From an uncultured Pelagibacteraceae bacterium (lineage in GTDB: Bacteria > Pseudomonadota > Alphaproteobacteria > Pelagibacterales > Pelagibacteraceae): a stretch of DNA of 64,000 bases. The first letter of the stretch is position 1. Each line of letters opens with the position of its first letter. The stretch covers positions 102,194 to 166,193 of the forward strand of contig CACEMG010000001.1 in assembly GCA_902560565.1 (NCBI GenBank), given 5' to 3'. The notes beneath the pieces were generated by a model. That model saw only the letters and a program-made list of their open reading frames with translations. It was not told the DNA's origin and ran no database searches. The translations under genes and the position numbers were made by a program. Shown piece after piece: positions 29,740-54,409 of the stretch.

Positions 29740-29855
29740 ATTATATTCTTTGTTTTTTTCCTTTTAAAGCTCCCTTTGCCTTTTTTTGGTTTAATCACCC
29801 TAATTTTATATTTAGGTGTCATTAAATCCTTAGCGATTGAATTTTTTTTTTTCAC
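29736..29855 (-). CDS. arfA: ArfA-like alternative ribosome-rescue factor, 39 aa, GTG start
   Basis: (V/M)KKKNSIAKDLMTPKYKIRVIKPKKGKGSFKRKKTKNII*; resembles E. coli ArfA [32 protein letters not shown] (from memory); GTG overlaps upstream stop as TAGTG. Confidence 0.75.
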   Translation of the reverse strand: MKKKNSIAKDLMTPKYKIRVIKPKKGKGSFKRKKTKNII

Positions 29856-30433
29856 TATATAAAATATCCTTTTTTGTCACTTTGAATAAAATTTTGGTCA
29901 TCAAAAGCTTTTTTAATTTTTTTTCTCAGTCTGTATACATGAGTTTCTACTGTATGTGTCTCTGAGTCTTCTGCGTAACCCCAAACTTCTTTTTGCAAAA
30001 CATTTATGTTTATTGGATCCTTTTGCTTTTTTAGAAATAATAAAATCTCGATTTCCCGTTCAGTAAGTTTTAGCATATTATTTTTAGAAGAAAAAACTCT
30101 AGAATTTATGTTTAAAGTGTATTCTTTAATATTAATATTTGATTGAAAATCGTATTGTTGCATCAATAAATTTGAATTGATTTTTTCGACCAATGAAAAG
30201 AGATTAAATGGATAATTTTCTATTTTTATTATTTGTTTCTTATCAATTAAATTATTATCGAAATTTTCTGTTGTTAAAACAATGAAGTTCCTATCCCCTC
30301 TTTTCTTTTGTTCATTTAATAAATCTTTTTCGTTTTCAAAATCAAATAAATCAAAATTAAAAAAGTTTTTAATCTCATAAATAATATTATATAAAACTTT
30401 AAAGTTTAAAATATAAACTGCCGATTTACTCAT
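29855..30433 (-). CDS. OmpR/PhoB-type winged-helix regulator with a degenerate receiver-like N-terminus
   Basis: MLKLTEREIEILLFLKKQ...VLQKEVWGYAEDSETHTVETHVYRLRKKIKKAF. Confidence 0.85.
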   Translation of the reverse strand: MSKSAVYILNFKVLYNIIYEIKNFFNFDLFDFENEKDLLNEQKKRGDRNFIVLTTENFDNNLIDKKQIIKIENYPFNLFSLVEKINSNLLMQQYDFQSNINIKEYTLNINSRVFSSKNNMLKLTEREIEILLFLKKQKDPININVLQKEVWGYAEDSETHTVETHVYRLRKKIKKAFDDQNFIQSDKKGYFI

Positions 30434-37020: not shown

Positions 37021-38013
37021 GTGATATTAAAACCATATCAATTCTCAAACTTAAAACATGCAAATCTAAACTTCTATTTATTGTACGGTCAAAATGAAGG
37101 GCAAAAATATGAAGTTATTCAAAAAATTTTAGATACAGGATATACTGAAAATATTCATAGATATGAAGAGGATGAAATATTTAATAACTATGACAATTTT
37201 ATAAATGAATTATTAAATAAATCTTTTTTTGAAGATAAAAAAATAATTGTAATTTCAAGAGTTACTGAAAAAATTAATTCATTGATAAATGATGTTAAGG
37301 ATAAAAATATTAAAGACGTAAAAATTATAATTAACTCAAAACCCCTAGATAAAAAATCGAAATTAAGAGCAAATTTTGAAAAAGATAAGGAGTTAGCTTG
37401 TGTTGCTTTTTACCACGATGACAATAACACTTTAGCTAACTCAGCGAGTAAATTTTTTTCTGAAAAAAAAATACCCATTTCTAGAGAAATACTAAATTTG
37501 TTAGTGGAAAGATGTAGAGGAGACAGGATAAATTTAAAAAATGAAATATCAAAAATAGAAAATTTTTTAATAGACAAAAAAACGATATCAGCAGATGAGA
37601 TTTTAAAATTAACAAATCTTGCTGAAAATTATAGTTTTTCTGAATTAGCAGATGCGTGTCTAAGTAAAAATAAAAAAAAAACATTATTAATTATTAATGA
37701 AAATAATTTCACATCCGAAGATTGTGTGACAATAATTAGAATATTTTTAAACAAAGCAAAAAGAATTTTAGTCTTAAAAAAAATGGAAAAAGAAAACATA
37801 TCTGTTGAGGAGTGCTTAACAACTTATAGACCAGCGATATTTTGGAAAGATAAAGAAGTTGTAAGGCAACAAATTAAACATTGGAGTCTTGAAAAAATTC
37901 AGCAATTAATTTTTTCAATAAATGATTTAGAGCTTCTTATAAAAAAAGATAATATAACTTCAGTTAATATATTAAACGATTTCATGCTAAATCAAGTAAG
38001 AATTAGTAATTAG
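37021..38013 (+). CDS. holA: DNA polymerase III delta subunit (GTG start)
   Basis: NFYLLYGQNEGQKYEVIQKIL; position after lptE. Confidence 0.9.
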   Translation: MILKPYQFSNLKHANLNFYLLYGQNEGQKYEVIQKILDTGYTENIHRYEEDEIFNNYDNFINELLNKSFFEDKKIIVISRVTEKINSLINDVKDKNIKDVKIIINSKPLDKKSKLRANFEKDKELACVAFYHDDNNTLANSASKFFSEKKIPISREILNLLVERCRGDRINLKNEISKIENFLIDKKTISADEILKLTNLAENYSFSELADACLSKNKKKTLLIINENNFTSEDCVTIIRIFLNKAKRILVLKKMEKENISVEECLTTYRPAIFWKDKEVVRQQIKHWSLEKIQQLIFSINDLELLIKKDNITSVNILNDFMLNQVRISN

Positions 38014-38851
38014 CTTTAATTACATAAATAAGCTTATTCAACTGATCTAGATCCTTATAGTTGAATGAGATAGTGCCAGAATTATTTTTTTTGTTATTTA
38101 TAGAAACCCTAATTCCTAATTTATTTATTAATATACTCTCTAGCTCCCTCAAATTTGAATCTTTTGAAATTAATTTTATCTTTTTCGGTTTTTTAAATAA
38201 ATTTGCTAAATTCTCAGCTTGCCTTACTGATAATTTTTTTTCAATAATTTTTTTTGCCAGTAAATTTGCATTTTCCAATCCAACTAATACTTTCGCATGA
38301 CCTTGAGTAATTTTTCCCGATTCAATAAAATCAATTACTTCTTTGGGCAAAGATAATAATCTTAAACAATTTGCAATATGAGCTCTACTCTTTCCAATAA
38401 ATTTTCCAACTTTTTCCTGATCATATCCAAAATCGTCCATCAGTTTTTTGTATCCAGCCGCTTCTTCTATGGGGTTTAGATCGCTTCTTTGTACGTTCTC
38501 AACAATTGCAAACTCCAATGCTTTTACATCATCTGCCTCAATTACTACTGCAGGTATTTCATTTAATCCTGCATTTTGTGAAGCTAACCACCTTCTTTCA
38601 CCAGCAACGATTTCATATTTTGCATTAAATTCTTTTGATTTCCTCACAATTATTGGCTGAACTACACCTCTTTCTCTAATAGAATTACTCAGTTCCTCTA
38701 GGCTTTCCTTATTAAATATTCTTCTTGGCTGGAATTTTCCTCTGACTATTTCACTAATAGAGATTTTATTTTTAATAGAAGAATTTTTTGTATCACCAAT
38801 TAAAGAGGAAAGACCTCTCCCTAATCCTTTTTTTTGTTTTACTGTGCTCAG
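38003..38851 (-). CDS. parB: Chromosome-partitioning protein ParB, full length with probable CTG start
   Basis: Same frame upstream of ORF-track start reads (CTG)STVKQKKGLGRGLSSLIGDTKNSSIKNKISISEIVRGKFQPRRIFNKESLEELSNSIRERGVVQPIIVRKSK...; CTG overlaps parA TGA as CTGA. Confidence 0.88.
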   Translation of the reverse strand: MSTVKQKKGLGRGLSSLIGDTKNSSIKNKISISEIVRGKFQPRRIFNKESLEELSNSIRERGVVQPIIVRKSKEFNAKYEIVAGERRWLASQNAGLNEIPAVVIEADDVKALEFAIVENVQRSDLNPIEEAAGYKKLMDDFGYDQEKVGKFIGKSRAHIANCLRLLSLPKEVIDFIESGKITQGHAKVLVGLENANLLAKKIIEKKLSVRQAENLANLFKKPKKIKLISKDSNLRELESILINKLGIRVSINNKKNNSGTISFNYKDLDQLNKLIYVIKANY

Positions 38852-39648
38852 GCTGCGCTCTCCATGATTTTTTCTTGATGCAAAAATTCCTCGGTTAAAC
38901 TAATATATGATTTACTACCTGGACAAGATTTATCATATATTAAAACAGGTATGCCATGAGACGGTGCCTCTGACAGTCTTACATTTCTTGGAATTACTGT
39001 ATTATAAACTTTTTCTTTGAAATAATCTCTTGCTTCTTTTTCAACCTGACTAGAAAGTTTATTTCTTTTATCATACATAGTTAGAATTATACCTCTAATA
39101 GATAGATTTGAATTAAGGTTATCTTTAACCCTATCAATAGTTTTGACTAATTGAGTTAAGCCCTCTAATGCAAAAAACTCAGTCTGCAACGGAACTATTA
39201 AAGAGTTTGAGGCAACTAATGCCATAACCGTTAACAAACTTAACGATGGTGGGCAATCAATAAAAACATGGCTATAATTAAAGCTATTTTCCTTTAAAAA
39301 CATAGATAATTTATCCCTTAAAATGAAGGCTCTGCCATTATCACCTGCGGTTTCCACTTCAAGACCCGAGAGATCAACGTTAGAAGTAACAATATCTAAG
39401 TTATTGATTTGAGTTTTTTGTATAATTTCTGAAATTGTCTTAGTTCCATTTAATGCGTTATAAATACTTTTTTCTGATCCATCTATATTGGAATGCCCTA
39501 ATCCGGTTGTAGCGTTTCCCTGAGGATCAAGATCTATTACCAAAATTTTTTTTTCTAGTTGCGCTAGTCCCGCTGCTAGATTTATTACAGTTGTTGTTTT
39601 CCCAACTCCTCCTTTTTGATTAATCACTGAAATTATTTTAGTTTTCAT
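38848..39648 (-). CDS. parA: Chromosome-partitioning ATPase ParA
   Basis: ISVINQKGGVGKTTTVINLAAGLA; DLDPQGNATTGLG. Confidence 0.98.
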   Translation of the reverse strand: MKTKIISVINQKGGVGKTTTVINLAAGLAQLEKKILVIDLDPQGNATTGLGHSNIDGSEKSIYNALNGTKTISEIIQKTQINNLDIVTSNVDLSGLEVETAGDNGRAFILRDKLSMFLKENSFNYSHVFIDCPPSLSLLTVMALVASNSLIVPLQTEFFALEGLTQLVKTIDRVKDNLNSNLSIRGIILTMYDKRNKLSSQVEKEARDYFKEKVYNTVIPRNVRLSEAPSHGIPVLIYDKSCPGSKSYISLTEEFLHQEKIMESAA

Positions 39649-40280
39649 TTTTTTTTTAAATTACAAATTTGAATTATTTTTGACTCAGAGCTTGTTATAC
39701 TTGTTTTTTCTTTATAATCGAAGCTCCAGTTGGTTAAAGTCTTTTCTAAAACATTCTTTTTATTTTTTCCTAAAAAAATTATTAAACTTCTAAATTTTTT
39801 AAAATTTTTTTTCGCTAGATCTAAAATTATAGGTAAAGGTTTGAATGCTCTTGCAATTATTAAGTCTGTTTCTATATTTTTTTCCTCAAATATATCTTTT
39901 TGAAATACTTCTGCATTCAAGTCTAATTTTTCTTTCACTTCGATAAGAAATTCACATTTTCTAAAACTCTTTTCATAAAGATGAAATTTCATATTAGGTT
40001 TTTTAATTTTCATTATGATTGCGAGAACTATCCCTGGTAATCCAGAACCTGATCCAATATCTGTACAAATATCATAATTTTCATCAATAAATTCAATGGT
40101 TTGCGCACAATCTACAATGTGCCTTTTTCTAATTTGACTCTCTGTTGATTTGCTAATTAAGTTAATTTTGTTGTTTTCTCTTTTCAATAAATCACAGTAA
40201 GCCTCAAACTGTGGAAATGTTTCACGTGAAACATTTAGAGGCTCCAGATTTTTATATTCTAAAATATTCGAATCAATCAA
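39645..40280 (-). CDS. rsmG: 16S rRNA (guanine-N7)-methyltransferase RsmG/GidB
   Basis: [32 protein letters not shown]. Confidence 0.96.
40218..40233. promoter_or_regulatory. parS: parS centromere site
   Basis: Exact 16-bp palindrome TGTTTCACGTGAAACA, within the rsmG 5' coding region. Confidence 0.93.
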
Positions 40281-42148
40281 GCTATCTTCTTAATAGACTT
40301 TCTTTTGATGTGAGACAACAAAATATATACGGCGGCTGGTGTTATTCCATCTATTCTTAAAGCTTGACCCATTGTTTTAGGCCTTATTTTCTTAAATTTA
40401 AACTTGACTTCATTAGAAAGTCCACTCAAGCTGTCATAATTTACACCCTCAGGAATTTTAAGATTCTCGTCTTTCTTAAAAGCTAATATATCTGCCTTTT
40501 GTTTATTCAAATAACCTTTATAATGTGCCATAATTTCAAGCTGCTCGTCTATTTCCTTTGATTTATTTGGTATTTGAGGCCAAATTTCCCTTATTTTTGT
40601 CATTTTAACGTCTTTTTGGCTAAGTATTTGCTCTGCATTTCTCTTTATTCCATCTTTAGCTATATTAACACCATATTTAGCAACTTTTGATGGAGAAATA
40701 TCTAAATTTAACATCATTTTTGACAATTTATCTAAATTTTCAGATTTTTTACGATAAATTTCCATTCTTTGATCATTGATTAAACCTATATTAATGCCTT
40801 TCTGTGTCAGTCTTAAATCAGCATTATCAGCTCTAAGACTTAATCTGTACTCAGCCCTAGATGTGAACATTCTGTATGGTTCGGCAACACCTTTTGTAAC
40901 CAAATCATCTATCATAACACCTATGTAGGCATCTGATCTATCTAAAATAAATGGCTCGCATTTTTTTACAGATTGAGCTGCGTTAATCCCAGCAATAAGA
41001 CCTTGTGCAGCTGCTTCCTCATATCCTGTAGTCCCATTTATCTGTCCAGCAAAATAAAGATTTTTAATTTTTTTTGTCTCCAATGTCAAAAAAAGTTCTC
41101 TTGGATCAACATAATCGTACTCGATTGCATACCCCGGACGTAAAATTTTAACATTTTCTAAACCTGTGATATTACTACATATTTGTGATTGAACTTCAGC
41201 TGGAAGGGATGTTGAAATACCATTTGGGTAAATAGTATTATCGTTTAATCCTTCGGGCTCAAGAAAAATTTGGTGTCTTTGTTTGTCAGAAAACTTAAAA
41301 ACTTTATCTTCGATCGATGGGCAATATCTTGGACCGACACCTTTTATACTACCTGAATACATTGCACTTAAGTTGATATTCTTTAAAATGATTTTGTGCA
41401 CCTTATCATTGGTATAGGTCATCTTGCATGAGACTTGTTTATTAATATTTTTGGTAGTTAAAAATGAAAAGAAGTATGGATCAGAGTCAGCTTTCTGATC
41501 TTCCAAATTCTCATAGTTAATTGACCTACTATCTAGTCTAGGTGGTGTGCCTGTTTTGAGTCTTCCAATCTTAAAATCGTGTTTTTCTAACTGCTCGCTT
41601 AAACCTGTTGTAGGTTTTTCATTGAATCTTCCCGCTGGAGTCTTTTCATCACCAATATGTATAAGACCATTTAAAAATGTCCCTGTGGTAAGTATAAGCT
41701 TACTGCAAGAAATTTTCTTTCCCGACTCTGTTATAAATCCGTTTATGGAGTTTTTATCAAAAATAAACTTAATGACAGGGTCCGAAAAAACGCTTAAATT
41801 ACAATAGTTTAGCAGTTTTTCTTGCATAAATTTTTTATAGAGTGATCTGTCACTCTGGGTTCTTGGACCCCTTACTGCTGGACCTCTGCTTCTATTTAAA
41901 AGTCTAAACTGTATACCTGAATTATCTGCTGCTACTCCCATTACACCATCTAAGGCGTCAATCTCTCTAACTAAATGTCCTTTACCTAATCCACCTATAG
42001 CAGGATTGCACGACATTTCACCTATAGTTTCTATTTTGTGAGTGTATAAAGCTGTATTTACGCCCAACCTTGCAGACGCTGCAGCTGCCTCACAACCTGC
42101 ATGACCACCACCTATTACTACTACATCAAAAAATAAATCTTTTGTCAT
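40277..42148 (-). CDS. mnmG: tRNA uridine-5-carboxymethylaminomethyl modification enzyme MnmG
   Basis: [44 protein letters not shown]. Confidence 0.98.
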
Positions 42149-42172
42149 AACAAAAATATAGTTATTTTTTTA

Positions 42173-43501
42173 TTATTTGCCAATACAGAAGTCATTGAAA
42201 ATACTACCAAGTATTTCTTCAACATCTACTATTCCAACAATCATTCCAAGATGTCTTACAGCTAGTCTAAGGTCCTCAGCCGCTTTATCGAAATCATTTT
42301 CTTTTTCTTTTTTTGTGAACTCGTCTAGATGATAAACGCATTGTAGAAGATGTTGTCTATGTCTTTCTCGTGTAATTATTGTATCCTCTACACTCACAAA
42401 TTTATTTTTTAAATTTTCTTTAATTTTATTAATAAGTTTATCAAGATTAGTTTCATCTCTAATGGAAACTGATATAGGATTGTATTTCTCTAACTCATTA
42501 CTTTTATTTGGTCCAAGATCTGATTTATTTATAACAAATATTGATTTTTTAAGATCCAGATCCTTCAAAAAGTCAATAAAATCAACGGTTTTTGGCTCGA
42601 AGACAAGAATATTTAAATCCGCATCTTCTGCTCTTTTAAGAGCTAATTTTATTCCTTTTTTTTCTATTTCGTCCTCAGAATTTCTTATTCCAGCAGTATC
42701 AGACATCACCACAGGGAAACCATCCATATTTATATAAACTTCAATTATATCTCTTGTTGTTCCAGCAATTTCTGAGACAATTGCAACTTCTCTCTTTGAA
42801 AAGTAATTAAGTAAACTAGATTTGCCAACATTTGTTGGGCCTATTATTGCAATTTTAAAACCTTCTCTTATTTTTTCACCTACTTTACTATCTTCCAATG
42901 TTTTTTTTATTTCCTGTTTTACTTTTTCCGAACTTGCTTTAATATTTCCTAATATATTACTTGGGAGATCTTCATCTGGAAAATCGATTTTTGCCTCTAA
43001 ATTTGATAAAATCTTTACCAATGCTTCTCTCCAATAATTAAACTTGTCTGAACTCTTACCACTCATAATTCTTAATGCTTGTTTTCTTTGAATCTCCGTT
43101 TCAGAAGCTATTAAATCTCCAATACTTTCAGCTTTTAGAAGATTTATTTTATCATTTTGAAAAGCTATTTTTGTAAATTCACCTGGCTCAGCTAATCTGC
43201 AATTTTCTATTTCTGATATGCTATCCAGAATAGATTTTATAACCGCTTTACTTCCGTGAGCTTGAATCTCTAACATGTCCTCACCTGTATAACTATTCGG
43301 TCCTGGAAACCAAATTAAGATACATTCATCTATTAACTCTTTTGTTTTTTCGTGAAAGATTTTTTTTAGAGTAGCAACTCTTGGTTTTAAATGTGCCCCT
43401 TTTGTAATTACTTTAATAACATCTTTTGTGCTAGCTCCAGAAATTCTAATTACTGCTACTCCAGAAATACCTGGGCCTGATGAAAGTGCGAAGATTGTCA
43501 T
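42173..43501 (-). CDS. mnmE: tRNA modification GTPase MnmE
   Basis: IFALSSGPGISGVAVIRISG; IIGPTNVGKSSLLNYF; C-terminal FCIGK. Confidence 0.98.
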   Translation of the reverse strand: MTIFALSSGPGISGVAVIRISGASTKDVIKVITKGAHLKPRVATLKKIFHEKTKELIDECILIWFPGPNSYTGEDMLEIQAHGSKAVIKSILDSISEIENCRLAEPGEFTKIAFQNDKINLLKAESIGDLIASETEIQRKQALRIMSGKSSDKFNYWREALVKILSNLEAKIDFPDEDLPSNILGNIKASSEKVKQEIKKTLEDSKVGEKIREGFKIAIIGPTNVGKSSLLNYFSKREVAIVSEIAGTTRDIIEVYINMDGFPVVMSDTAGIRNSEDEIEKKGIKLALKRAEDADLNILVFEPKTVDFIDFLKDLDLKKSIFVINKSDLGPNKSNELEKYNPISVSIRDETNLDKLINKIKENLKNKFVSVEDTIITRERHRQHLLQCVYHLDEFTKKEKENDFDKAAEDLRLAVRHLGMIVGIVDVEEILGSIFNDFCIGK

Positions 43502-43634
43502 AAATTTGATATCTAAAATTATAGATATTATAAATTGAAAATCTTTTTTGTAAATTGCCCTTTAAAGTATTTTAACTTTCCTTAAAGAAATTATTTCTTT
43601 ATTACTTGTTTTAACGAATTATTGTTTAAATTTG

Positions 43635-44558
43635 TTAAATATTAAGGTTTCCATTTTCTTTAATGATTAATGAAAAAGCCGCCTGTATTGGAAAGTAACA
43701 GTCTGAATTACTATTATTAATCAGATATGGTAAAATATAAAGTTCTGAATCAATATCCTCAAAGCCAAGGTTAAAATTAACAATTTCATTTTTTTGGTAG
43801 AAAATATTTTTTTTTGTTCCGTCTTTAAACTTTAATTCAACAATTTGATCTCCCTTATATTTTCTTTTATTTTCTATAACTTTATTTATTTTGTAAATAC
43901 CTAGCCCACCATAAGCAGATTTAACTTTAATTGGCTCGAGATTTTGATTGAAACTTAACTTTTTCATATCCATGTACTTTTTTTGAAAATCACTTAAAAC
44001 ATTTGAACTAATTTGATCGTTTGGGTTAATTTCTTTAGCTATATCTTTTAATGTTTGTACCCAAAAATCATTCTTGCAATACTTTTCATCTATTAATCCC
44101 CACATATCATAATAAGTACCAATCTGATTAGCAAAAACCCCAGCTCTTTTTTTATCCGAAATTAAAAATTGAATAGCTTTTGTAAAACTTTCAATTCCTA
44201 TTTTTTCAATATTTCTATCATCGAAATCTAATGCAATAAATAAATCACATTTTTTCAACTCATCGTTTTCTTTAATTGTATCAATTATTAAATTTCTAGC
44301 ATGCTCTAATCTTTTCCCTCTATAAGTATATTTGCTTAAATCTTCTCTAAAAAATAAATAATCTTTTATTTTTGTATGTTTTTTTAATAAATTTTTTGTG
44401 TTGTCTTTTGAACCGTTTTCTACAATTATTTTATAAGTTGCATTAAAATATGATGAATAATAATCAATATTAGACATAACCTTTTCGATATACTTTTCAC
44501 AATCCCTCGCACAACCACCAAAGACCACGTTTAAATCTTTAATTTCTTTTTCTATCAT
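43635..44558 (-). CDS. Glycosyltransferase-like protein (GT-A/GT2-like)
   Basis: VVFGGCARDCEKYIEKVMSNIDYYSSYFNATYKIIVENGSKDNTKNLL; LFIALDFDDRN. Confidence 0.7.
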   Translation of the reverse strand: MIEKEIKDLNVVFGGCARDCEKYIEKVMSNIDYYSSYFNATYKIIVENGSKDNTKNLLKKHTKIKDYLFFREDLSKYTYRGKRLEHARNLIIDTIKENDELKKCDLFIALDFDDRNIEKIGIESFTKAIQFLISDKKRAGVFANQIGTYYDMWGLIDEKYCKNDFWVQTLKDIAKEINPNDQISSNVLSDFQKKYMDMKKLSFNQNLEPIKVKSAYGGLGIYKINKVIENKRKYKGDQIVELKFKDGTKKNIFYQKNEIVNFNLGFEDIDSELYILPYLINNSNSDCYFPIQAAFSLIIKENGNLNI

Positions 44559-46195
44559 TTTGATATTTCATTAATTGTATTTAATTTTAAAATAAAATTT
44601 TTAACAAACAAATCTATATCAAACAAAGGAGATTGAAGCACTTGAGATCTCAATTTTTTTCTTACAATGAGTAATTTTTCAATGTTTGCTTTATTTTTAA
44701 ATTGTGTTGCAATTGAAATATATTCTTGCTTATTGTTTGCTATATAATTGCTTAATTTTGAATTTTTATTAATGCTATAGCCACATCTTGAGACAAATCT
44801 GTCACCTTTCAGAGTAACAACTGGCACACCCATCCATAAAGCCTCGAAGGTGGTTGTAACACCATTATATGGATAAGTGTCAAGACATAAGTCAATATTA
44901 TTATATTGTTCTAAATGTTTTTTTTTATCTAACTCATAGTTTAAAATTTTAATTCTTTGAGGATTAATTTCTTTTTTAAATTTTTTGATTATATAGTCTT
45001 TAAAATTTATATCAGCAGAAGAAGAATTTTTAAGTATTAAATTTGAATTTTCAAATTTATGTAAAATTTCTTCCCACATATTTATAGTATAGCTGGATAT
45101 TTTTAGAAAATTATTAAAGCAACCAAAGTTAAAATGTTTATTTTTTATATAAGGTAACTCATTTACTTGAACATCTTCCAACTTTGATATCGTATTCCAT
45201 ATATGTGGCATAGATATTAACTTAGACTTGCTATCCTTAAGATCATCTGAAATTATATAGTCATCAACAATCATGTGATCAATTTCTTCTATATGTGTTT
45301 CATTACAATAACCTAACCAAGATATCTGTACAGGTGCAGGTTTATTTTTATAAACTTGTAGTCTGTTACCATTTGAATAACCTCCTAAATCAAATAAATA
45401 ATATATCCTCTTTGAATAAATAAGATCACTAATTTCCTTATCGTTTAAATTAGAAACATCGTTCCATTCGAAGAATGCTTTTTTAAAATTATTAGTGAAA
45501 TTATCGTCTTTTCTTTCTTTACTTAAATTAAATGCTATAGGTTTTAAATTTTTATCTTTAAGAATCTTTACAAAATCTTTTAAAAAATATCCGACAGAAT
45601 GTTGTTTCAAATCATAAGATAAAAATCCAATTTTTGATTTATCGTGATCGTTTGGGTTAAATTTATAATTAATTTTATTTTTAAATATTGTTTTATTAAA
45701 TTTTTCACAATATTTTTTGTATTCATCTTTTGAATAAGTATTTGAATAATTTAAAAGAAAGATTAAAGCAGCTAAATCTTTTGTTTCATATTTCCCGCTA
45801 TTGATAAGAATTTTATGATAATAAATTGTGTCCTCAATTGTTCCTGCGCCAAAAGTTAAATCAGCTAAATTAAGAATAATGTTATGATCTCCAGGATTTT
45901 TAGCGTTATAATCCTTGAGCATATTTATTGTTTGGATAAAATCTTTGTCCAAATAAGCCAACTTCGCCAAATTTAGCAGACTGTGGATGTAATATTTGTC
46001 AAGTTTTAAAGCGAAGTTAAAATATTTTTTTGCTTTTGAGTAATTTTTGTTTAATAACTCGATAACACCTAGGATATTATAGTAAAAAGGGTCTTCTTTT
46101 TCATTATCGTTAAGTGCTTCTATTTCGAATTTTATACTCTCAAATTGTTTAGATTTATATAAGGTTTCTATTTTCTTTTTAAAATTTATATTCAA
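44555..46195 (-). CDS. TPR protein with O-GlcNAc-transferase (GT41/SPINDLY)-like domain
   Basis: N-terminal TPRs; PAPVQISWLGYCNETHIEEIDHMIVDDYI; DLCLDTYPYNGVTTTFEALWMGVPVVTLKGDRFVSRCGYSI. Confidence 0.9.
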   Translation of the reverse strand: MNINFKKKIETLYKSKQFESIKFEIEALNDNEKEDPFYYNILGVIELLNKNYSKAKKYFNFALKLDKYYIHSLLNLAKLAYLDKDFIQTINMLKDYNAKNPGDHNIILNLADLTFGAGTIEDTIYYHKILINSGKYETKDLAALIFLLNYSNTYSKDEYKKYCEKFNKTIFKNKINYKFNPNDHDKSKIGFLSYDLKQHSVGYFLKDFVKILKDKNLKPIAFNLSKERKDDNFTNNFKKAFFEWNDVSNLNDKEISDLIYSKRIYYLFDLGGYSNGNRLQVYKNKPAPVQISWLGYCNETHIEEIDHMIVDDYIISDDLKDSKSKLISMPHIWNTISKLEDVQVNELPYIKNKHFNFGCFNNFLKISSYTINMWEEILHKFENSNLILKNSSSADINFKDYIIKKFKKEINPQRIKILNYELDKKKHLEQYNNIDLCLDTYPYNGVTTTFEALWMGVPVVTLKGDRFVSRCGYSINKNSKLSNYIANNKQEYISIATQFKNKANIEKLLIVRKKLRSQVLQSPLFDIDLFVKNFILKLNTINEISK

Positions 46196-46219
46196 TTTTT
46201 TTAGAATTTAAAAAAATAG

Positions 46220-47491
46220 TTATGATGGTTTATTCATAGAATTAAAAAATTCAGAATTATTTTTTGTATTTTTAAGTTTAGAATTAATAAATTCTATAGC
46301 ATCCATTGAACCCATCGGGGCAATTATTCTTCTTAAAACATTCATTTTTTGAAGATCGGCCTTTTCAAAAATTAATTCCTCACGTCTGGTACCAGATTTA
46401 GTAATATCTATTGCTGGGAAAATTCTTTTTTCTGAAATCTTTCTATCTAATATTGTTTCACTATTTCCAGTTCCTTTAAATTCTTCAAAAATTACCTCGT
46501 CCATTCTGCTACCAGTATCAATTAAAGCTGTAGCAATTATAGTTAGTGAGCCTCCTTCTTCAATGTTTCTTGCAGCACCAAAAAACCTTTTAGGTCTTTG
46601 TAAGGCGTTTGCATCAACACCTCCGGTTAAAACTTTTCCAGAACTTGGAACTACAGCGTTATATGCTCTACCAAGTCTTGTAATTGAGTCCAAAAGTATA
46701 ACCACGTCCTTTTTATGTTCAGTAAGTCTTTTGGCTTTTTCTATTACCATTTCGGCTACAGCCACGTGTCTTTGCGCAGGCTCGTCAAATGTTGAGCTAA
46801 TCACCTCTCCTTTGACTGTCCTTTGCATATCAGTAACTTCTTCTGGTCTCTCATCAATCAATAAAACCATCAAATAGCATTCTGGGTGATTTGCAGTAAT
46901 TGAATTGGCGATGCTTTGTAAAATCATCGTTTTGCCAGCTTTTGGAGGAGATATTATTAACGATCTTTGCCCTTTTCCTATTGGACTTACAAGATCAATT
47001 AATCTTGGTGTTAAATCTGGTTTTTTTTCAATTTTTGTACTTTCAACCTCCATCATTAATTGTTTGTTTGGATATAACGGAGTTAAGTTATCAAAGGCTA
47101 TCTTGTGACGAGATTTTTCAGCGTCCTCTAAATTAATTTTGGTTACCTGTAGTAAGGCAAAATATCTTTCACCATCTTTAGGTGCTCTAACTGGTCCCTC
47201 AACGGTATCCCCAGTTCTTAAGCCAAATCTTCTTATCTGACTAGGGCTTATATATATATCATCGGGTCCAGGCAGATAATTTGATTCCATTGCTCTTAGG
47301 AAACCAAAGCCATCTTGCAACATTTGCAAAACTCCACCACCTGTAATTTCCTCCCCTTTTTCTGCTAATTTCTTTAAGATAGAAAAAAGAATTTCTTGTT
47401 TCCTTAAAGTACTAGCGTTTTCAATTCCTAACTCTTCTGCTTGAGAAATGAGATTTTCTGATGATTTTGTTTTAAGTTCTTGAATATTCAT
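46220..47491 (-). CDS. rho: Transcription termination factor Rho
   Basis: [48 protein letters not shown]. Confidence 0.99.
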
Positions 47492-47553
47492 AATGTTGGG
47501 GGTTTATTTGTTAGATAAGCCAAATATATATACATATTTCTAAATTTCAATAC

Positions 47554-47988
47554 CTATAATGGCTTAAAAACAACAGTAAATATGATTAATATTAATAATA
47601 TAGTTGGAATTTCGTTAAATATTCTAAAAAATTTTGATGAATATTTATTTTCGTCGATTTTGAATTTGCTCAAGCATACTCCTAAAAAAAAATGATAAGC
47701 TGTTAAAATTACTATAAATATTAGCTTTAAAATTAACCACAAGTTATTAAGCTGATCAAACCCAATACTTCCAATCAGTGCTAAACCGAAAATCCACGAA
47801 AGTATCATCGATGGCATCATAATATAGTTGTAAAGTTTAAATTCCATAACTTTAAAAACCTCACTTACATTTTTTTCAGCGTTTTTTTCTGAATGATATA
47901 CAAAAATTCTAGGAAGATATAACAGTCCAGCCATCCAAGATATGACTGCGATTAAATGTAAAGCTTTTAATGTTAAATATAGGTTCAT
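47554..47988 (-). CDS. hemJ: HemJ-type protoporphyrinogen IX oxidase
   Basis: LKALHLIAVISWMAGLLYLPRIFVYH; next to hemH and hemE. Confidence 0.92.
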   Translation of the reverse strand: MNLYLTLKALHLIAVISWMAGLLYLPRIFVYHSEKNAEKNVSEVFKVMEFKLYNYIMMPSMILSWIFGLALIGSIGFDQLNNLWLILKLIFIVILTAYHFFLGVCLSKFKIDENKYSSKFFRIFNEIPTILLILIIFTVVFKPL

Positions 47989-48983
47989 TTATTTATAATA
48001 TATCTTTCAACCAATGTACTAATAAGTTTTATATGATCATCATTATCATTAAGACACGGCACTACATCAAAATTTGATCCCCCAGCTTTTAGAAAACTTT
48101 CCTTTCCTTGAATGGCAATTTCTTCTAACGTTTCAACACAATCGGAAGAGAATCCTGGACAAATTACTAAAATTTTTTTTTTTCCGGTACTTGGAAGTTT
48201 TTCTAAAGTCTTATCAGTATAAGGTTGTAACCATTCTTGGGGGCCAAATCTGGATTGAAATGTTGTTTCAATTGGTATTCTAGTAAATTTCTCCTTAATA
48301 AGCCTTGTGGTTTTATGGCAATAGCAGTGATAGGGATCCCCCTTTTCAAAGTATTTCTTTGGTATACCATGATATGAAGCTACAATTAAATCAGGCTCCC
48401 AGTTTATTAATGCTATTTTATTTTCAATGCTTTTAACTAAAGCATCAATATATAATGGTTCAGACTCATAATGGGGTATAATTTGCAAGCTTGGCTGCCA
48501 CCTGGTTTTCATCAAAATCCTATAAATTTCATCACAAACTGTTGCTGTGGTTGCTGCTGCATATTGAGGATATAAGGGAAGAATTATTAAGTTTTCACAT
48601 CCGTCGTTCTGCATTTTAGCTAAAACACTTTTTATGCTTGGATTTCCATATCTCATTGCAAAATCAATCATTAAATTTTTATTTTTAATTTTATTTCTTA
48701 GCTTCATTGTTTGACTTTGCGTATAATACCTTAACGGCGACATGTTTTCTTTTTTCATCCATATTTCCTTATAGGCTTTTGCTGTTTTAGAAGGCCTAAA
48801 AGTTAAAATAAAAAGATTGAGAATTATTTGCCAAATTATCGGGTTAACTTCTATAACTCTTCTGTCCGATAAAAACTCTTTCAAGTATTTACGGATATCA
48901 AGCCAGCTAGTAGAATCAGGTGTTCCAAGGTTAACTATTAAAATTCCAGTTTTACCATAATTAATTTTAGGATGATCTTTCAT
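47985..48983 (-). CDS. hemH: Ferrochelatase
   Basis: GILIVNLGTPDS; SYHGIPKKYFEKGDPY. Confidence 0.97.
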   Translation of the reverse strand: MKDHPKINYGKTGILIVNLGTPDSTSWLDIRKYLKEFLSDRRVIEVNPIIWQIILNLFILTFRPSKTAKAYKEIWMKKENMSPLRYYTQSQTMKLRNKIKNKNLMIDFAMRYGNPSIKSVLAKMQNDGCENLIILPLYPQYAAATTATVCDEIYRILMKTRWQPSLQIIPHYESEPLYIDALVKSIENKIALINWEPDLIVASYHGIPKKYFEKGDPYHCYCHKTTRLIKEKFTRIPIETTFQSRFGPQEWLQPYTDKTLEKLPSTGKKKILVICPGFSSDCVETLEEIAIQGKESFLKAGGSNFDVVPCLNDNDDHIKLISTLVERYIINK

Positions 48984-49980
48984 TAAACTTTCTTACTATC
49001 TTAATTAAATATTGTATCATATTTGGATCAGTTTGAGGTAGAACCCCATGTCCTAAATTAAATATATATGGGTGATTTTCGAAAACACTTAGATAATAAT
49101 TAGTAATCTTTTCTAAGTTTTTTTTACCAGTTAATAAAATTTTTGGGTCCATACCTCCTTGTATTGGTATGCTTATATTTTTAATTATATCTTTAGGGTT
49201 TACATTGTAATCAATGTTAATTGCATCTGGCTTTACTGCATTTGTATAATTTGCATAATTTTTAATATTTCTTGGGAAACAAATACAGGGCACATTTAAA
49301 GATTTGGTAAATTTTACTAACTTCTTAGTTGGTTCATAAATGAATTCATTTAAGTTTCTTTTACCAACCAATCCTGCCCAACTATCAAATATTTGAATAA
49401 TATTGGCTCCACTTTTGATTTGGTCTTGTACATGAAATATTAAATACTTATTAATATATTTCAGAAGATCTTTTATTAAAGATTTATCGGAAAAAACTTT
49501 ATTTAGCTTCCTTTTTGGAGAAGACCTGTTTAACATGTATACTAATATTGTCCATGGGCCACCAACAAATCCTATTAAATCTTTGTTTTTTAAAATTTTA
49601 TCTTTCTTAACTTTATAAATAGAATTGTAAATTGGCTCTAATTTTTTTCTAAAGGTCTTGCGATTACAAATTTTAATTTCATCAGAGGTTATTGGTCCCA
49701 AGAAAGGACCAAAATTTTTTTTAAATTCAACTGTTTGACCCAATCCAAATGGAACCACCAGTATATCAGAAAAGATAATTGCTGCATCGAGATTATATCT
49801 TTTTATTGGTTGTAATGTAATATTTTTAACTTTATCGGAGTCTAAGCATAACTTAATAAAGTTTGGATTCTTTTTTCTTATTGTCCTGAATTCAGGTAAA
49901 TGTCTTCCTGCTTGTCTCATTAGCCATAAAGGCTTTGTTGATTTATCTTTATTCTTAATAACTTTTGTTAAAGGAGTCAT
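48967..49980 (-). CDS. hemE: Uroporphyrinogen decarboxylase
   Basis: PLWLMRQAGRHLPEF; IFSDILVVPFGLGQ; FVGGPWT. Confidence 0.98.
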   Translation of the reverse strand: MTPLTKVIKNKDKSTKPLWLMRQAGRHLPEFRTIRKKNPNFIKLCLDSDKVKNITLQPIKRYNLDAAIIFSDILVVPFGLGQTVEFKKNFGPFLGPITSDEIKICNRKTFRKKLEPIYNSIYKVKKDKILKNKDLIGFVGGPWTILVYMLNRSSPKRKLNKVFSDKSLIKDLLKYINKYLIFHVQDQIKSGANIIQIFDSWAGLVGKRNLNEFIYEPTKKLVKFTKSLNVPCICFPRNIKNYANYTNAVKPDAINIDYNVNPKDIIKNISIPIQGGMDPKILLTGKKNLEKITNYYLSVFENHPYIFNLGHGVLPQTDPNMIQYLIKIVRKFNERSS

Positions 49981-50266
49981 ATAAAATATATAATTAAGTT
50001 TATTTTAATAGTATATTAACTTGTTAATAATGGTGAAAACTTTTTATCAACACCTTTTATATAAATTTTCCACAAGATAAAATTAACATTTGATTATTTA
50101 ACTTATATATAAAATCATTCTTATTTCGATTAATTATATATTGTTAATATTAATTATACATGTGACTAAAAATGTTGATTAAGTGGGTTTTTTTCATTCA
50201 AAGGACATAAATATTCAATTTCCTATAAAATAAGTTTATTATTAACTTTTAATATACAAATTATAC
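49981..50266. other. oriC: Candidate chromosomal replication origin (oriC)
   Basis: 286-bp very AT-rich divergent intergenic region between hemE and ppsR; DnaA-box-like TTTTCCACA (50066-50074), TTATCAACA (50044-50052); leftward block of minus-strand genes and mostly plus-strand genes to the right. Confidence 0.78.
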
Positions 50267-51091
50267 ATGATTAATTTATATCAAATATATCTAATATCTG
50301 ACTCAACGGGTGAAACCTTGGATAGAATCTTTTTAGCTTTGAAAGCTCAATTTAATAACTTCCATTATAAAACTAACCACTTTTCATTCACCAGGACTGA
50401 AAATCAAATTATTAAAATACTGGAGAACTGTAAAAAAAAAGAAAAAACAATAATACTTTACACAATAGTTGACAATAAGCTTAGTAAATTTTTGAAAGAT
50501 AAAGCTAAAGAAAAAAGCATCCCATGTTTTAGTGTATTAGGTGATTTAATAGAAAGCTTTTCAAATTTGTTAAATCAAGATGCTTTAAATGTACCAAGTA
50601 GACAACACATCATGAATGATGAATATTATAAAAAAATTGATGCTATCCAATTTACAATGAATCATGATGATGGAAATGCAATAGAAGACATAGATAAATC
50701 TGACATAATATTAATAGGAGTTAGTAGAACTAGTAAAACGCCAACCTCTATTTATTTAGCCAACAAAGGTTATAAAGTATCAAATATTCCAATTGTGAAC
50801 AATAGTTCTATACCTGAGAAAGTTAAAAAAAATAAATTGAAAAAGTGTATAATTGGTTTGATAGCAGAACCAGAAAGGCTTGTTGAAATAAGGAAAAATA
50901 GAATGACTAGCCTTAAAGAGACCGGTAATCAAAAATATACAAACCTACAAAAAATTTATGAAGAAGTTAGAAGTTCAAAAAATACTTTCTCGAAGTTTAA
51001 ATGGCCAACAATTGATGTAAGTAGGAAATCCGTTGAAGAAACAGCAGCTTCTGTTATTAAAATATACGAAATAAGCAGAAAAAATGCCTGA
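50267..51091 (+). CDS. PEP synthase/PPDK regulatory protein (DUF299 kinase-phosphorylase)
   Basis: YLISDSTGETLDRI; DIILIGVSRTSKTPTSIYLANKGYKVSNIP. Confidence 0.95.
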   Translation: MINLYQIYLISDSTGETLDRIFLALKAQFNNFHYKTNHFSFTRTENQIIKILENCKKKEKTIILYTIVDNKLSKFLKDKAKEKSIPCFSVLGDLIESFSNLLNQDALNVPSRQHIMNDEYYKKIDAIQFTMNHDDGNAIEDIDKSDIILIGVSRTSKTPTSIYLANKGYKVSNIPIVNNSSIPEKVKKNKLKKCIIGLIAEPERLVEIRKNRMTSLKETGNQKYTNLQKIYEEVRSSKNTFSKFKWPTIDVSRKSVEETAASVIKIYEISRKNA

Positions 51092-51662
51092 TATTATTTT
51101 AGCTTCGAAAAGTAAAGTAAGAAAAACAATACTTGAAAAAAATAAAATAAGTTGCACAGTGAAACCATCAAACGTAGACGAAGAACCAATTAAAACCAGC
51201 CTTTTAAAAGAAGGCGCCTCTCCAGAGGTAATTTCAAAAAATTTAGCAGAACTTAAGGCAAATAAAGTCAGCCAAAAAATGAGTCAAAACTTAGTTTTAG
51301 GTGCAGATAGCGTAATCGACTTAGAGGGAGAACTAATATCTAAACCAGTAGATAGAGATGAAGCTTTTAAGATATTGAAAAAATTAAATGGTAAAAAACA
51401 TTATCTAATTAGCTCAGTTTGCATCTCAAAAAATGGTTCGATGTTATGGAACTATACAGACAAGGCCGAATTAACAATGAAAAAGATGACCGATAATGAT
51501 CTTAAAGATTATCTGTCAAAAATTACTGACGAAGCTCTTTATTCGTATAACGTATATCAGATTGAAAGCGAGGGTAGAAATTTGTTTACTAAAATAGACG
51601 GAGATAAAGATACAATTATGGGGCTCCCAATCAAAAAAATTAAAGAATATTTAATTACATGA
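51084..51662 (+). CDS. maf: Maf-like nucleoside triphosphate pyrophosphatase
   Basis: IILASKSKVRKTIL; LVLGADSVID; IMGLPIKKI. Confidence 0.93.
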   Translation: MPDIILASKSKVRKTILEKNKISCTVKPSNVDEEPIKTSLLKEGASPEVISKNLAELKANKVSQKMSQNLVLGADSVIDLEGELISKPVDRDEAFKILKKLNGKKHYLISSVCISKNGSMLWNYTDKAELTMKKMTDNDLKDYLSKITDEALYSYNVYQIESEGRNLFTKIDGDKDTIMGLPIKKIKEYLIT

Positions 51663-52369
51663 AAAATTCTTTAATTTCATTACTTATAATTGTTTTTTCT
51701 ACATATTTTTTGGTAGAATTTATTGGAGACAGATTAATTAAGAATATATTACAAAAAAATATTTCCAGCACATTAAATAGAGATGTATTAATTAAAAAAT
51801 TAAATATTAACTACTTAAGTGGTGAAGCTAGGGGAAAAGACATCAGTCTATTAAATAACAAATTTGATGGATATTTATTAAAAATTGACTCTGTAGAGGT
51901 AGACCTAGATGCATTTTCAATTTTCTCTAATAATATTATTATTAATGATGTTTTATTAGAAAATATAAAAGTTAATTATTACTTTAATTTTTCTGAACAA
52001 ATAATTTCTGATAATGTACGATCCTTAAAAAAAAATCTTGAAAATAAAAACACATATTCTCGATCGCATAAATATTTTAATATAAAAAATTTAGATGCTA
52101 AAAATATTTCTTTATCTGCTTTCTCACCAAATTTAAATATTGAAAAAACTATAAGATTAGATGATATGAATTTTAATAATGTCGGGAACACAAATGAGAG
52201 TAGGGACTATAAAGATATATTAAAAGATGTATTCATTGACACAACAGAAATAATAAAAGAAAAAATATTTAATGAAAATTTTTTAGAAAAACTCGAAAAT
52301 TTTGACCCAAATCAGTTAGAAGATAAAGTTAAAGACAAATTAAAAAATAAACTTAAAAAAATATTTTAA
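51659..52369 (+). CDS. AsmA-like membrane-anchored hypothetical protein
   Basis: N-terminal TM then LNRDVLIKKLNINYLSGEARGKDISLLNN..VDSVEVDLDAFS pattern. Confidence 0.5.
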   Translation: MKNSLISLLIIVFSTYFLVEFIGDRLIKNILQKNISSTLNRDVLIKKLNINYLSGEARGKDISLLNNKFDGYLLKIDSVEVDLDAFSIFSNNIIINDVLLENIKVNYYFNFSEQIISDNVRSLKKNLENKNTYSRSHKYFNIKNLDAKNISLSAFSPNLNIEKTIRLDDMNFNNVGNTNESRDYKDILKDVFIDTTEIIKEKIFNENFLEKLENFDPNQLEDKVKDKLKNKLKKIF

Positions 52370-53166
52370 TGAAAAAATATTTAGTTATAGGAAATCCAAT
52401 AGAACATTCTTTATCCCCAAAACTCCATAATTATTGGATAAAAAAAAATAATTTAAATGCGTCTTATGAAAAAAAGTTAATTTCAGAAAATGATATTGGA
52501 AATATTATTTCAAAAATAAAATCTGAAGAAATTACTGGAATTAATGTTACAGTTCCATTTAAAAACAAAGTTGTAGAGTATATGGACGTTCTGACAAAGG
52601 AAGCAAATGAAACTAATTCTGTTAACACTATTTATTTAAAAGACCAAAAAATCATTGGTCATAATACTGATATAGCTGGGTTCGAGCTAGGCATAAGATC
52701 TTATGGATATGATGTTAAAAAAAAAAATATTTTTATATTCGGAGCTGGCGGTGTAGTTCCATCATTAATAGTGGCACTTAAAAAAATGGGAGCGATGAAG
52801 ATACTATTGTATAATAGAACTGTTTCAAAGTCTGAAAATATAAAAAAATTATTTAATGATATTTCAATTATTGAAAAACAAAATATCCCAAATGATGTAG
52901 ACATGTTAATAAATGCTTCAAGTCTTGGGATTAATAAAAATGATAAAATTGATTTAAACTACGAAAAAATTGGTACAAATAAATTTTATTATGACGTTAT
53001 TTATAATCCTGCGGAAACTTTTTTTTTAAGTCAAGGTAAAAAATTTGGAAACAAAGTTGAGAACGGAAAAAAAATGTTTATTTATCAAGCACACCAAGCA
53101 TTTGCTATATGGCATAACGTTTTACCAAAAATAGATGAAGAAGTAGAAAGACTTCTGGATGAATAA
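52369..53166 (+). CDS. aroE: Shikimate dehydrogenase
   Basis: VIGNPIEHSLSPKLHNYWI; GINVTVPFKNKV; GHNTDIAGFELG. Confidence 0.97.
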   Translation: MKKYLVIGNPIEHSLSPKLHNYWIKKNNLNASYEKKLISENDIGNIISKIKSEEITGINVTVPFKNKVVEYMDVLTKEANETNSVNTIYLKDQKIIGHNTDIAGFELGIRSYGYDVKKKNIFIFGAGGVVPSLIVALKKMGAMKILLYNRTVSKSENIKKLFNDISIIEKQNIPNDVDMLINASSLGINKNDKIDLNYEKIGTNKFYYDVIYNPAETFFLSQGKKFGNKVENGKKMFIYQAHQAFAIWHNVLPKIDEEVERLLDE

Positions 53167-53738
53167 TGATTAGAATTGCTATAGTTGGAGATGTTGGATC
53201 AGGAAAAACTTATATTGCCAAATTATTTGGTTTTCCAGTTTTTAACGCAGATAAGAATGTGGCAGAAATTTATAAAAAAAGCAGACTTGTTTATAAAAAA
53301 CTTAAAACAAAATTGCCAGAATATATAGTCTCTTTTCCTGTTAAAAAAAGTCATATAAGTAATGCTATAAGAAATAATCCAAGAAATATTAAATTAGTAT
53401 CTAAGATAATTCATCCAGTTGTTAGAAAAAGAATGAGAGAGTTCTTGAGAAAAAACAGCTCTAAAAAGGCAGTTGTTTTAGATATCCCTTTATATTTTGA
53501 GAATAATTTAAATAGAAACAAAGACATCGTAATTTTTGTAAGCTCAAGGAAAGAGCTTATTAATAGAGCTTTAAAAAAGAGGAATAAATCAAATTTAAAA
53601 CTTTTAAAAAAACTATCTAAATTACAATTACCTCTAGAAAAAAAGAAAAAAAAATCAGATTATGTTATTAAAAATTATTTTAATAAAGCAGATATAAAAA
53701 AAAAAGTTAATATAGTAAAAAGACAAATATTTTTATAA
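53166..53738 (+). CDS. coaE: Dephospho-CoA kinase
   Basis: IAIVGDVGSGKTYIAKLFGFPVFNADKNVAEIY; VLDIPLYFEN. Confidence 0.92.
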   Translation: MIRIAIVGDVGSGKTYIAKLFGFPVFNADKNVAEIYKKSRLVYKKLKTKLPEYIVSFPVKKSHISNAIRNNPRNIKLVSKIIHPVVRKRMREFLRKNSSKKAVVLDIPLYFENNLNRNKDIVIFVSSRKELINRALKKRNKSNLKLLKKLSKLQLPLEKKKKKSDYVIKNYFNKADIKKKVNIVKRQIFL

Positions 53739-54409
53739 TGAAAGAAGTAATTTTAGATACAGAAACAACAGGTCTTGATGTTAAAGATGGACATAGGTTA
53801 GTAGAGATAGGATGTTTGGAAATTGATAATTTTGTTTTAACATCAAAAAAATTTCATTGCTTTTTAAATCCTGAAAGAAAGGTGTCCGAACAAGCACTAA
53901 AAGTTCATGGTTATACCGATTCATTTTTATCAACACAAAAAAAATTCTCTGAAATAGCAGATGAATTTCTAAACTTTATTGAAGGTAAAAAACTAGTTAT
54001 TCACAATGCTAATTTTGATCTTTCCCATCTAAATAACGAGTTAGCAATTTTAGGTAAAAAAAAAATTAGTTTTCAAAACGTTATAGATACACTTGAATTA
54101 GCAAGAAAAAAATTTCCAGGAGCTCAAAATAGTCTAGATGCTTTATGTAAAAGATTCAAAATAGACAATTCTGTAAGAGTAAAACATACAGCACTTGTAG
54201 ACTGTGAGCTTCTTTCAAGAGTTTATGTTAATTTGACTGGCCAAAAAGAGCCTACTTTTGACCTAAAAATAGGGGAGAATAATATTGGGTCAGAAGATAA
54301 TAATAAAAAAATTAAATATTATAATAAAGTCATTAAACCAACAGAACAGGAAATTAAATTACACAAAAATTTTCTTAAAACTAATCTTAAAAAAAATTTT
54401 TTTAATTAA
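53738..54409 (+). CDS. dnaQ: DNA polymerase III epsilon subunit
   Basis: EVILDTETTGLDVKDGHRLVEIGCLEI; HNANFDLSHLNNEL; HTALVDCELLSRVY. Confidence 0.97.
   Translation: MKEVILDTETTGLDVKDGHRLVEIGCLEIDNFVLTSKKFHCFLNPERKVSEQALKVHGYTDSFLSTQKKFSEIADEFLNFIEGKKLVIHNANFDLSHLNNELAILGKKKISFQNVIDTLELARKKFPGAQNSLDALCKRFKIDNSVRVKHTALVDCELLSRVYVNLTGQKEPTFDLKIGENNIGSEDNNKKIKYYNKVIKPTEQEIKLHKNFLKTNLKKNFFN

Follow-up and report, generated by a model that had tools for sequence, protein, structure and literature searches.

The intergenic region between hemE and ppsR in a SAR11 bacterium is very probably its chromosomal replication origin, oriC. The region lies at 49981-50266 of the window, the whole 64,000-nucleotide stretch of DNA analysed here, and was first singled out as a candidate from the letters of the window alone. 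This original prediction is supported by gene context, by a parS site with ParA and ParB, by the GC skew of a closed congeneric genome, and by the density of DnaA boxes pooled over homologous gaps. Of the two outcomes that had been named as refuting it, a skew minimum elsewhere and a box density no higher than in random AT-rich DNA, neither was seen, as far as the data allowed. The computed basis comprises context, gap length, boxes, the periodicity of trinucleotides next to one box, the melting minimum, the skew of relatives, parS with ParA and ParB, and the apparent lack of CtrA in the closed relative, whereas DnaA binding, the opening site, helicase loading, and actual initiation at the gap are what we infer. 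Among the features by which hemE/COG1806-type origins are recognized, the gene pair, an AT content above average, boxes above chance, and a skew shift (broadly, in the closed relative) were all observed.

Since this is the place that the literature predicts for origins of this class, the find is ordinary in kind. What is added is a set of six box positions, a trio-like array, the apparent absence of control by CtrA, and a gap that seems to have survived the loss of ppsR. SAR11 belongs to the most abundant bacterial groups in the ocean, and an origin with base-level landmarks helps growth estimates from metagenome read depth; it also provides a naturally occurring example of an origin in the Alphaproteobacteria that apparently does without CtrA. 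Among the open-access papers searched, none was found to describe such an origin in SAR11 at base level, and DoriC-type databases may already predict the place.

Gene context and conservation of the gap

The window (G000:C1:102194-166193) belongs to a SAR11 (Pelagibacteraceae) draft genome of 28 contigs and 1,086,069 bases that is 82% complete. The original prediction had described the region as the longest gene-free, AT-rich stretch, and both properties hold: at 286 bp it exceeds every other interval between open reading frames of at least 80 amino acids in the window (the next being 249 and 200 bp), and its AT content is 83.9%, compared to approximately 71% over the contig (contig G+C 0.293). 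The flanking genes, which diverge from either side of the gap, were correctly named as hemE and ppsR according to profile matches (PF01208/TIGR01464 and PF03618/NF003742). As had been stated, every main open reading frame from 38003 to 49980 points left; the companion claim, that most genes to the right point right, is true of 50267-54409, but beyond this segment orientation is mixed.

Table. Features of the hemE-ppsR region and its surroundings (window coordinates)
Feature	Position	Strand	Evidence or remark
hemE-ppsR intergenic region, candidate oriC	49981..50266		divergent pair and length kept, box enrichment, skew of closed relative G012
hemE, uroporphyrinogen decarboxylase	48967..49980	-	PF01208 2.7e-78; TIGR01464 305.1 bits, cut-off 302.95
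ppsR, kinase-pyrophosphorylase (DUF299/COG1806; PPDK/PEP-synthase regulator family)	50267..51091	+	PF03618 9.2e-89; NF003742 above cut-off
maf-like gene	51084..51662	+	PF02545 1.1e-41; adjoins gap in sister family without ppsR
Candidate duplex-unwinding element beside hemE start codon	49981..50005		nearest-neighbour energy; putative function
Candidate DnaA-trio array TAA-TAG-TAT	50006..50014	+	genus consensus TAT-TAG-TAT-TAT, extends to 50017
DnaA box B1, TTATTAACA; most frequent variant among relatives TTATTCACA	50022..50030	-	60/65 with at most 1 mismatch to TTAT[CT][CA]ACA
DnaA box B2, TTATCAACA	50044..50052	+	TTWTNMACA in 31/65; A50050 and C50051 invariant in 65
DnaA box B3, TTTTCCACA	50066..50074	+	44/65 with at most 1 mismatch
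Box position B4, degenerate in window (TTATACATG)	50154..50162	+	25/65 with at most 1 mismatch
DnaA box B5, TAATCAACA	50173..50181	-	52/65 with at most 1 mismatch
Box position B6, degenerate in window (TAATATACA)	50250..50258	+	37/65 with at most 1 mismatch
Perfect parS TGTTTCACGTGAAACA inside rsmG	40218..40233		sole copy in 230-kb contig
ParA-family ATPase	38848..39648	-	best matches ParA/RepA-type partition families, below curated cut-offs
ParB	38003..38647	-	TIGR00180 140.4 bits, cut-off 58.45

Homologous gaps were gathered from 62 genomes with PF03618 and six named records, which yielded 65 loci with a readable gap; this set includes the genome of the window itself, and no two of its gaps are identical. 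hemE and ppsR are divergent in all 65, and the gap measures 261-289 bp with 79-87% AT. The conserved blocks within it are 9-mers on both strands, separated by variable sequence. Elsewhere in the same family, the hemE products of two genomes of genus g6 (G121 and G124) scored approximately 183 bits, compared to approximately 300 in the rest.

In a sister family (f2), PF03618 was absent among the genomes listed. Six of the eight loci read in this family (L178, L182, L185, L187, L190, and L193; L196 and L197 were left out of the gap count) have hemE, then a gap of 274-275 bp, and then a Maf-family gene (PF02545, 4.6e-36), maf being the next gene after ppsR in the window. These gaps carry DnaA boxes, and an exact TTATCCACA is present in four of the six. 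The simplest reading is that this family has lost ppsR and kept the origin.

DnaA boxes

All four DnaA-box motifs of the original prediction were recovered at the same positions and on the same strands (B1-B3 and B5), and the alignment of the 65 gaps revealed six box positions in both orientations, any other position being occupied in at most 8 of 65; the two additional ones (B4 and B6) are degenerate in the window. The boxes of the window gap do not include a perfect TTATCCACA. The motif TTWTNMACA occurs there three times against 0.35 expected, a count reached by none of 100 shuffles. Box density, which had been proposed as a check, is far above that of AT-matched shuffles once homologous gaps are pooled (225 matches in the 65 gaps against approximately 25 expected, or about ninefold, with a largest shuffle total of 42), although, since aligned relatives share ancestry, such totals show constraint and do not represent independent trials. 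The reversed control motif ACAMYTATT was found only twice in these gaps, compared to 136 times for the forward form. The most enriched 9-mers were TTATTAACA, present in 51 gaps versus 4.6 expected, and TTATTCACA, present in 37 versus 0.6.

At a larger scale, a scan of the whole window showed no enrichment (8 TTWTNCACA versus 11.4 expected), and within the whole 230-kb contig, dnaA included, the hemE-ppsR gap is the sole 300-bp stretch with three TTWTNMACA boxes. In the closed genome G012, several other 300-bp stretches reach three boxes and two reach four, and the gap is tied for second place in box count among 228 intergenic regions; within this single closed genome, the gap does not stand out by box density alone.

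A candidate unwinding element and DnaA-trio array

According to nearest-neighbour energy, the least stable 41 bp lie at 49979-50019 (centred at 49999) and equal the weakest value in the 64-kb window. On the + strand, the sequence upstream of B1 has T at offsets -7, -10, -13, and -16 in 59, 61, 64, and 62 of the 65 genomes, respectively, mostly with A after it. The longest TAN run at B1 has a mean of 3.0, versus 1.61 in shuffles (maximum 2.00), while the means at the other boxes are 1.05-1.58. The pattern of the genus is TAT-TAG-TAT-TAT, followed by a spacer that is most commonly 4 and by the complement of B1, and the window has three trios with a spacer of 7. A trio-like array with a spacer of 4, 7, 10, or 13, all belonging to a single register, is present in 60 of the 65 gaps, and TAN runs of two to four occur in the identical register in other genera and in the sister family. 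Plain NAN runs were not above shuffles in these AT-rich gaps (3.31 versus 3.04), and runs of the preferred TA[GA] trios alone were no longer than in shuffles.

The previously described basal unwinding system (BUS) consists of a DnaA box and DnaA-trios with a published spacer limit of 16 bp, and published scaffolds with a 5' tail encoding trios imply the orientation of the trios (PMC8287927). In the window gap, the distance between a DnaA box and three NAN trinucleotides, which lie on the correct strand, falls inside this limit. The arrangement is similar to the BUS of Bacillus subtilis oriC and its broad relatives in its box, its short spacer, its three or more central-A trinucleotides, and their matching strand and order (PMC8287927), but differs in that the SAR11 candidate trios are mostly TAT, whereas BUS prefers TAG (3'-GAT-5'). 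Pelagibacter is not named in the main text of PMC8287927. The TAN array may be considered a candidate array of this type, its orientation, spacing, and location being those of DnaA-trios. It coincides with a possible -10 region of the hemE promoter, which would be either an alternative to it or an overlapping element.

Position in the chromosome

The cumulative GC-skew minimum, whose location on a full genome had been suggested as a check, was determined in the closed congeneric genome G012 (1,343,202 bp, 5,000 of them masked), where it spans the gap, broadly, and the maximum is nearly opposite. This genome has a clear two-arm pattern with a broad minimum (1,290,841, or 1,231,116 after detrending) that is flat for about 80 kb, from approximately 1.23 to 1.31 Mb, and its hemE-ppsR gap (1,261,949-1,262,209) lies inside the plateau. 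The maximum (615,774) misses the position opposite the gap by approximately 25 kb, and the best symmetric split (1,288,000) is 26 kb from the gap. Third-position skew corrected for gene strand was too weak to refine this, locating the minimum no more closely than to about 0.25 Mb on each side. For G125, which represents a second genus, the maximum of the first 800 kb is at 493 kb and the position opposite its own hemE-ppsR gap is 17 kb away from it, which agrees with an origin at the gap if the arms are about equal. The contig of the window is not decisive: its skew passes through several local minima, of which that at C1 117,294 is the deepest. A separate feature of G012 is a 7.5-kb locus without open reading frame calls (L108, G012:C1:1044949-1052494), which probably contains the 5,000 masked bases.

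The original prediction had stated that parABS lies about 10 kb from such origins, and parS, the ParA-family ATPase, and ParB were indeed located 10-12 kb to the left of the gap. In G012, a single parS-like site with one mismatch is present at 1,254,719, near parA. The DnaA protein, encoded approximately 65 kb left of the gap, is itself ordinary: none of the three Pfam domains is missing, and it carries RDHTTVIH, the motif of DnaAs that read boxes. A search for a dif site by consensus gave no credible match.

Comparison with known origins and the apparent absence of CtrA control

In Caulobacter, CtrA represses the origin. The proven Caulobacter crescentus origin, Cori, is AT-rich and flanked by hemE and COG1806; within it lie several DnaA boxes, five sites for CtrA, and a single IHF site (PMC1914354). 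The predicted origin of Rickettsia prowazekii is also between hemE and COG1806, the prediction being based on Caulobacter criteria that include CtrA sites (PMC1914354). Similar to Cori, the SAR11 gaps have both flanking genes, AT-richness, and several candidate DnaA boxes; unlike Cori, they are without a clear excess of CtrA sites, their IHF-like sites are at chance, and GANTC is scarce. With the Rickettsia prowazekii prediction they share the hemE/COG1806 location, the comparison being one of gene context.

CtrA sites were defined as TTAA-N7-TTAA, a motif that the majority of described origins of the hemE/COG1806 type possess and some lack. A total of 34 were counted over the 65 gaps versus approximately 18 expected, the largest shuffle total being 35, and the window gap has two matches, a number obtained in 0.04 of shuffles. 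The four OmpR-type proteins of G012 are PhoB or others, none of them near the NCBIfam cut-off for CtrA, a model built for Rhodobacterales. Pelagibacter has been reported to be without ctrA (PMC2877005). Control of the SAR11 origin by CtrA appears to be absent. The IHF-like motif WATCAANNNNTTR, a consensus for sites that are degenerate, is at chance over the genus and has no match in the window gap. GANTC, the target of CcrM, occurs twice versus approximately nine times in shuffles (hemE-ppsR gaps of L043 and 64 relatives), and a CcrM homologue has been reported in SAR11 (PMC3973325).

Alternative explanations

Divergent genes require promoters, and the gap might merely be a two-way promoter of hemE and ppsR whose motifs are promoter or regulator sites, replication beginning elsewhere nearby. 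The motif block closest to hemE could be a -10 region, and promoter-like sites are present in the gap, although not in excess (5 versus 4.1 in shuffles). However, what is conserved is a set of DnaA boxes that occupy six positions and face both ways, a box-bearing gap of nearly equal length persists in the family without ppsR, and both the skew and parS fit an origin; we consider this explanation very improbable. Slightly less probable still is an origin elsewhere in the broad skew minimum, such as near dnaA, as might be suggested by the flatness of that minimum and by the other stretches of G012 with three or four boxes. Against it, no second three-box stretch exists in the contig that carries dnaA, and the gene pair, the gap length, and the distance to parS all indicate the gap.

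Conserved non-coding blocks could also reflect a riboswitch or other structured RNA belonging to hemE or ppsR, but an Rfam search of both strands of the gap gave no match up to E = 1 and the blocks are short words on both strands with variable sequence in between, so the RNA-family candidate was rejected and has hardly any credibility left.

Proposed mechanism of initiation

If the gap is oriC, DnaA would bind the four recognisable boxes, B1-B3 and B5, up to two more being available in relatives. From B1, a DnaA filament would grow to the left onto the + strand and read the TAN trinucleotides, whose array would end 4 bases before the box (7 in the window). The filament would then open the very weak AT-rich duplex, which extends as far as the start codon of hemE, helicase would be loaded at the opened duplex, and two forks would depart. 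Segregation of the new origins may be aided by ParB bound to the single parS, which lies 10 kb away. A more specific proposal, toward which we lean slightly more to doubt than to acceptance, is a stripped-down, CtrA-free origin in which a single box and the TAN array open the DNA at the hemE start, where hemE transcription could influence opening.

An OmpR-type protein in the window

The window also encodes, at 29855-30433 on the - strand, a protein whose C-terminus is of the OmpR DNA-binding type; among its NCBIfam matches, no receiver domain is recognised in the N-terminal half. A similar gene is found in G012 (G012:C1:1244375-1244590), approximately 18 kb from the probable origin.
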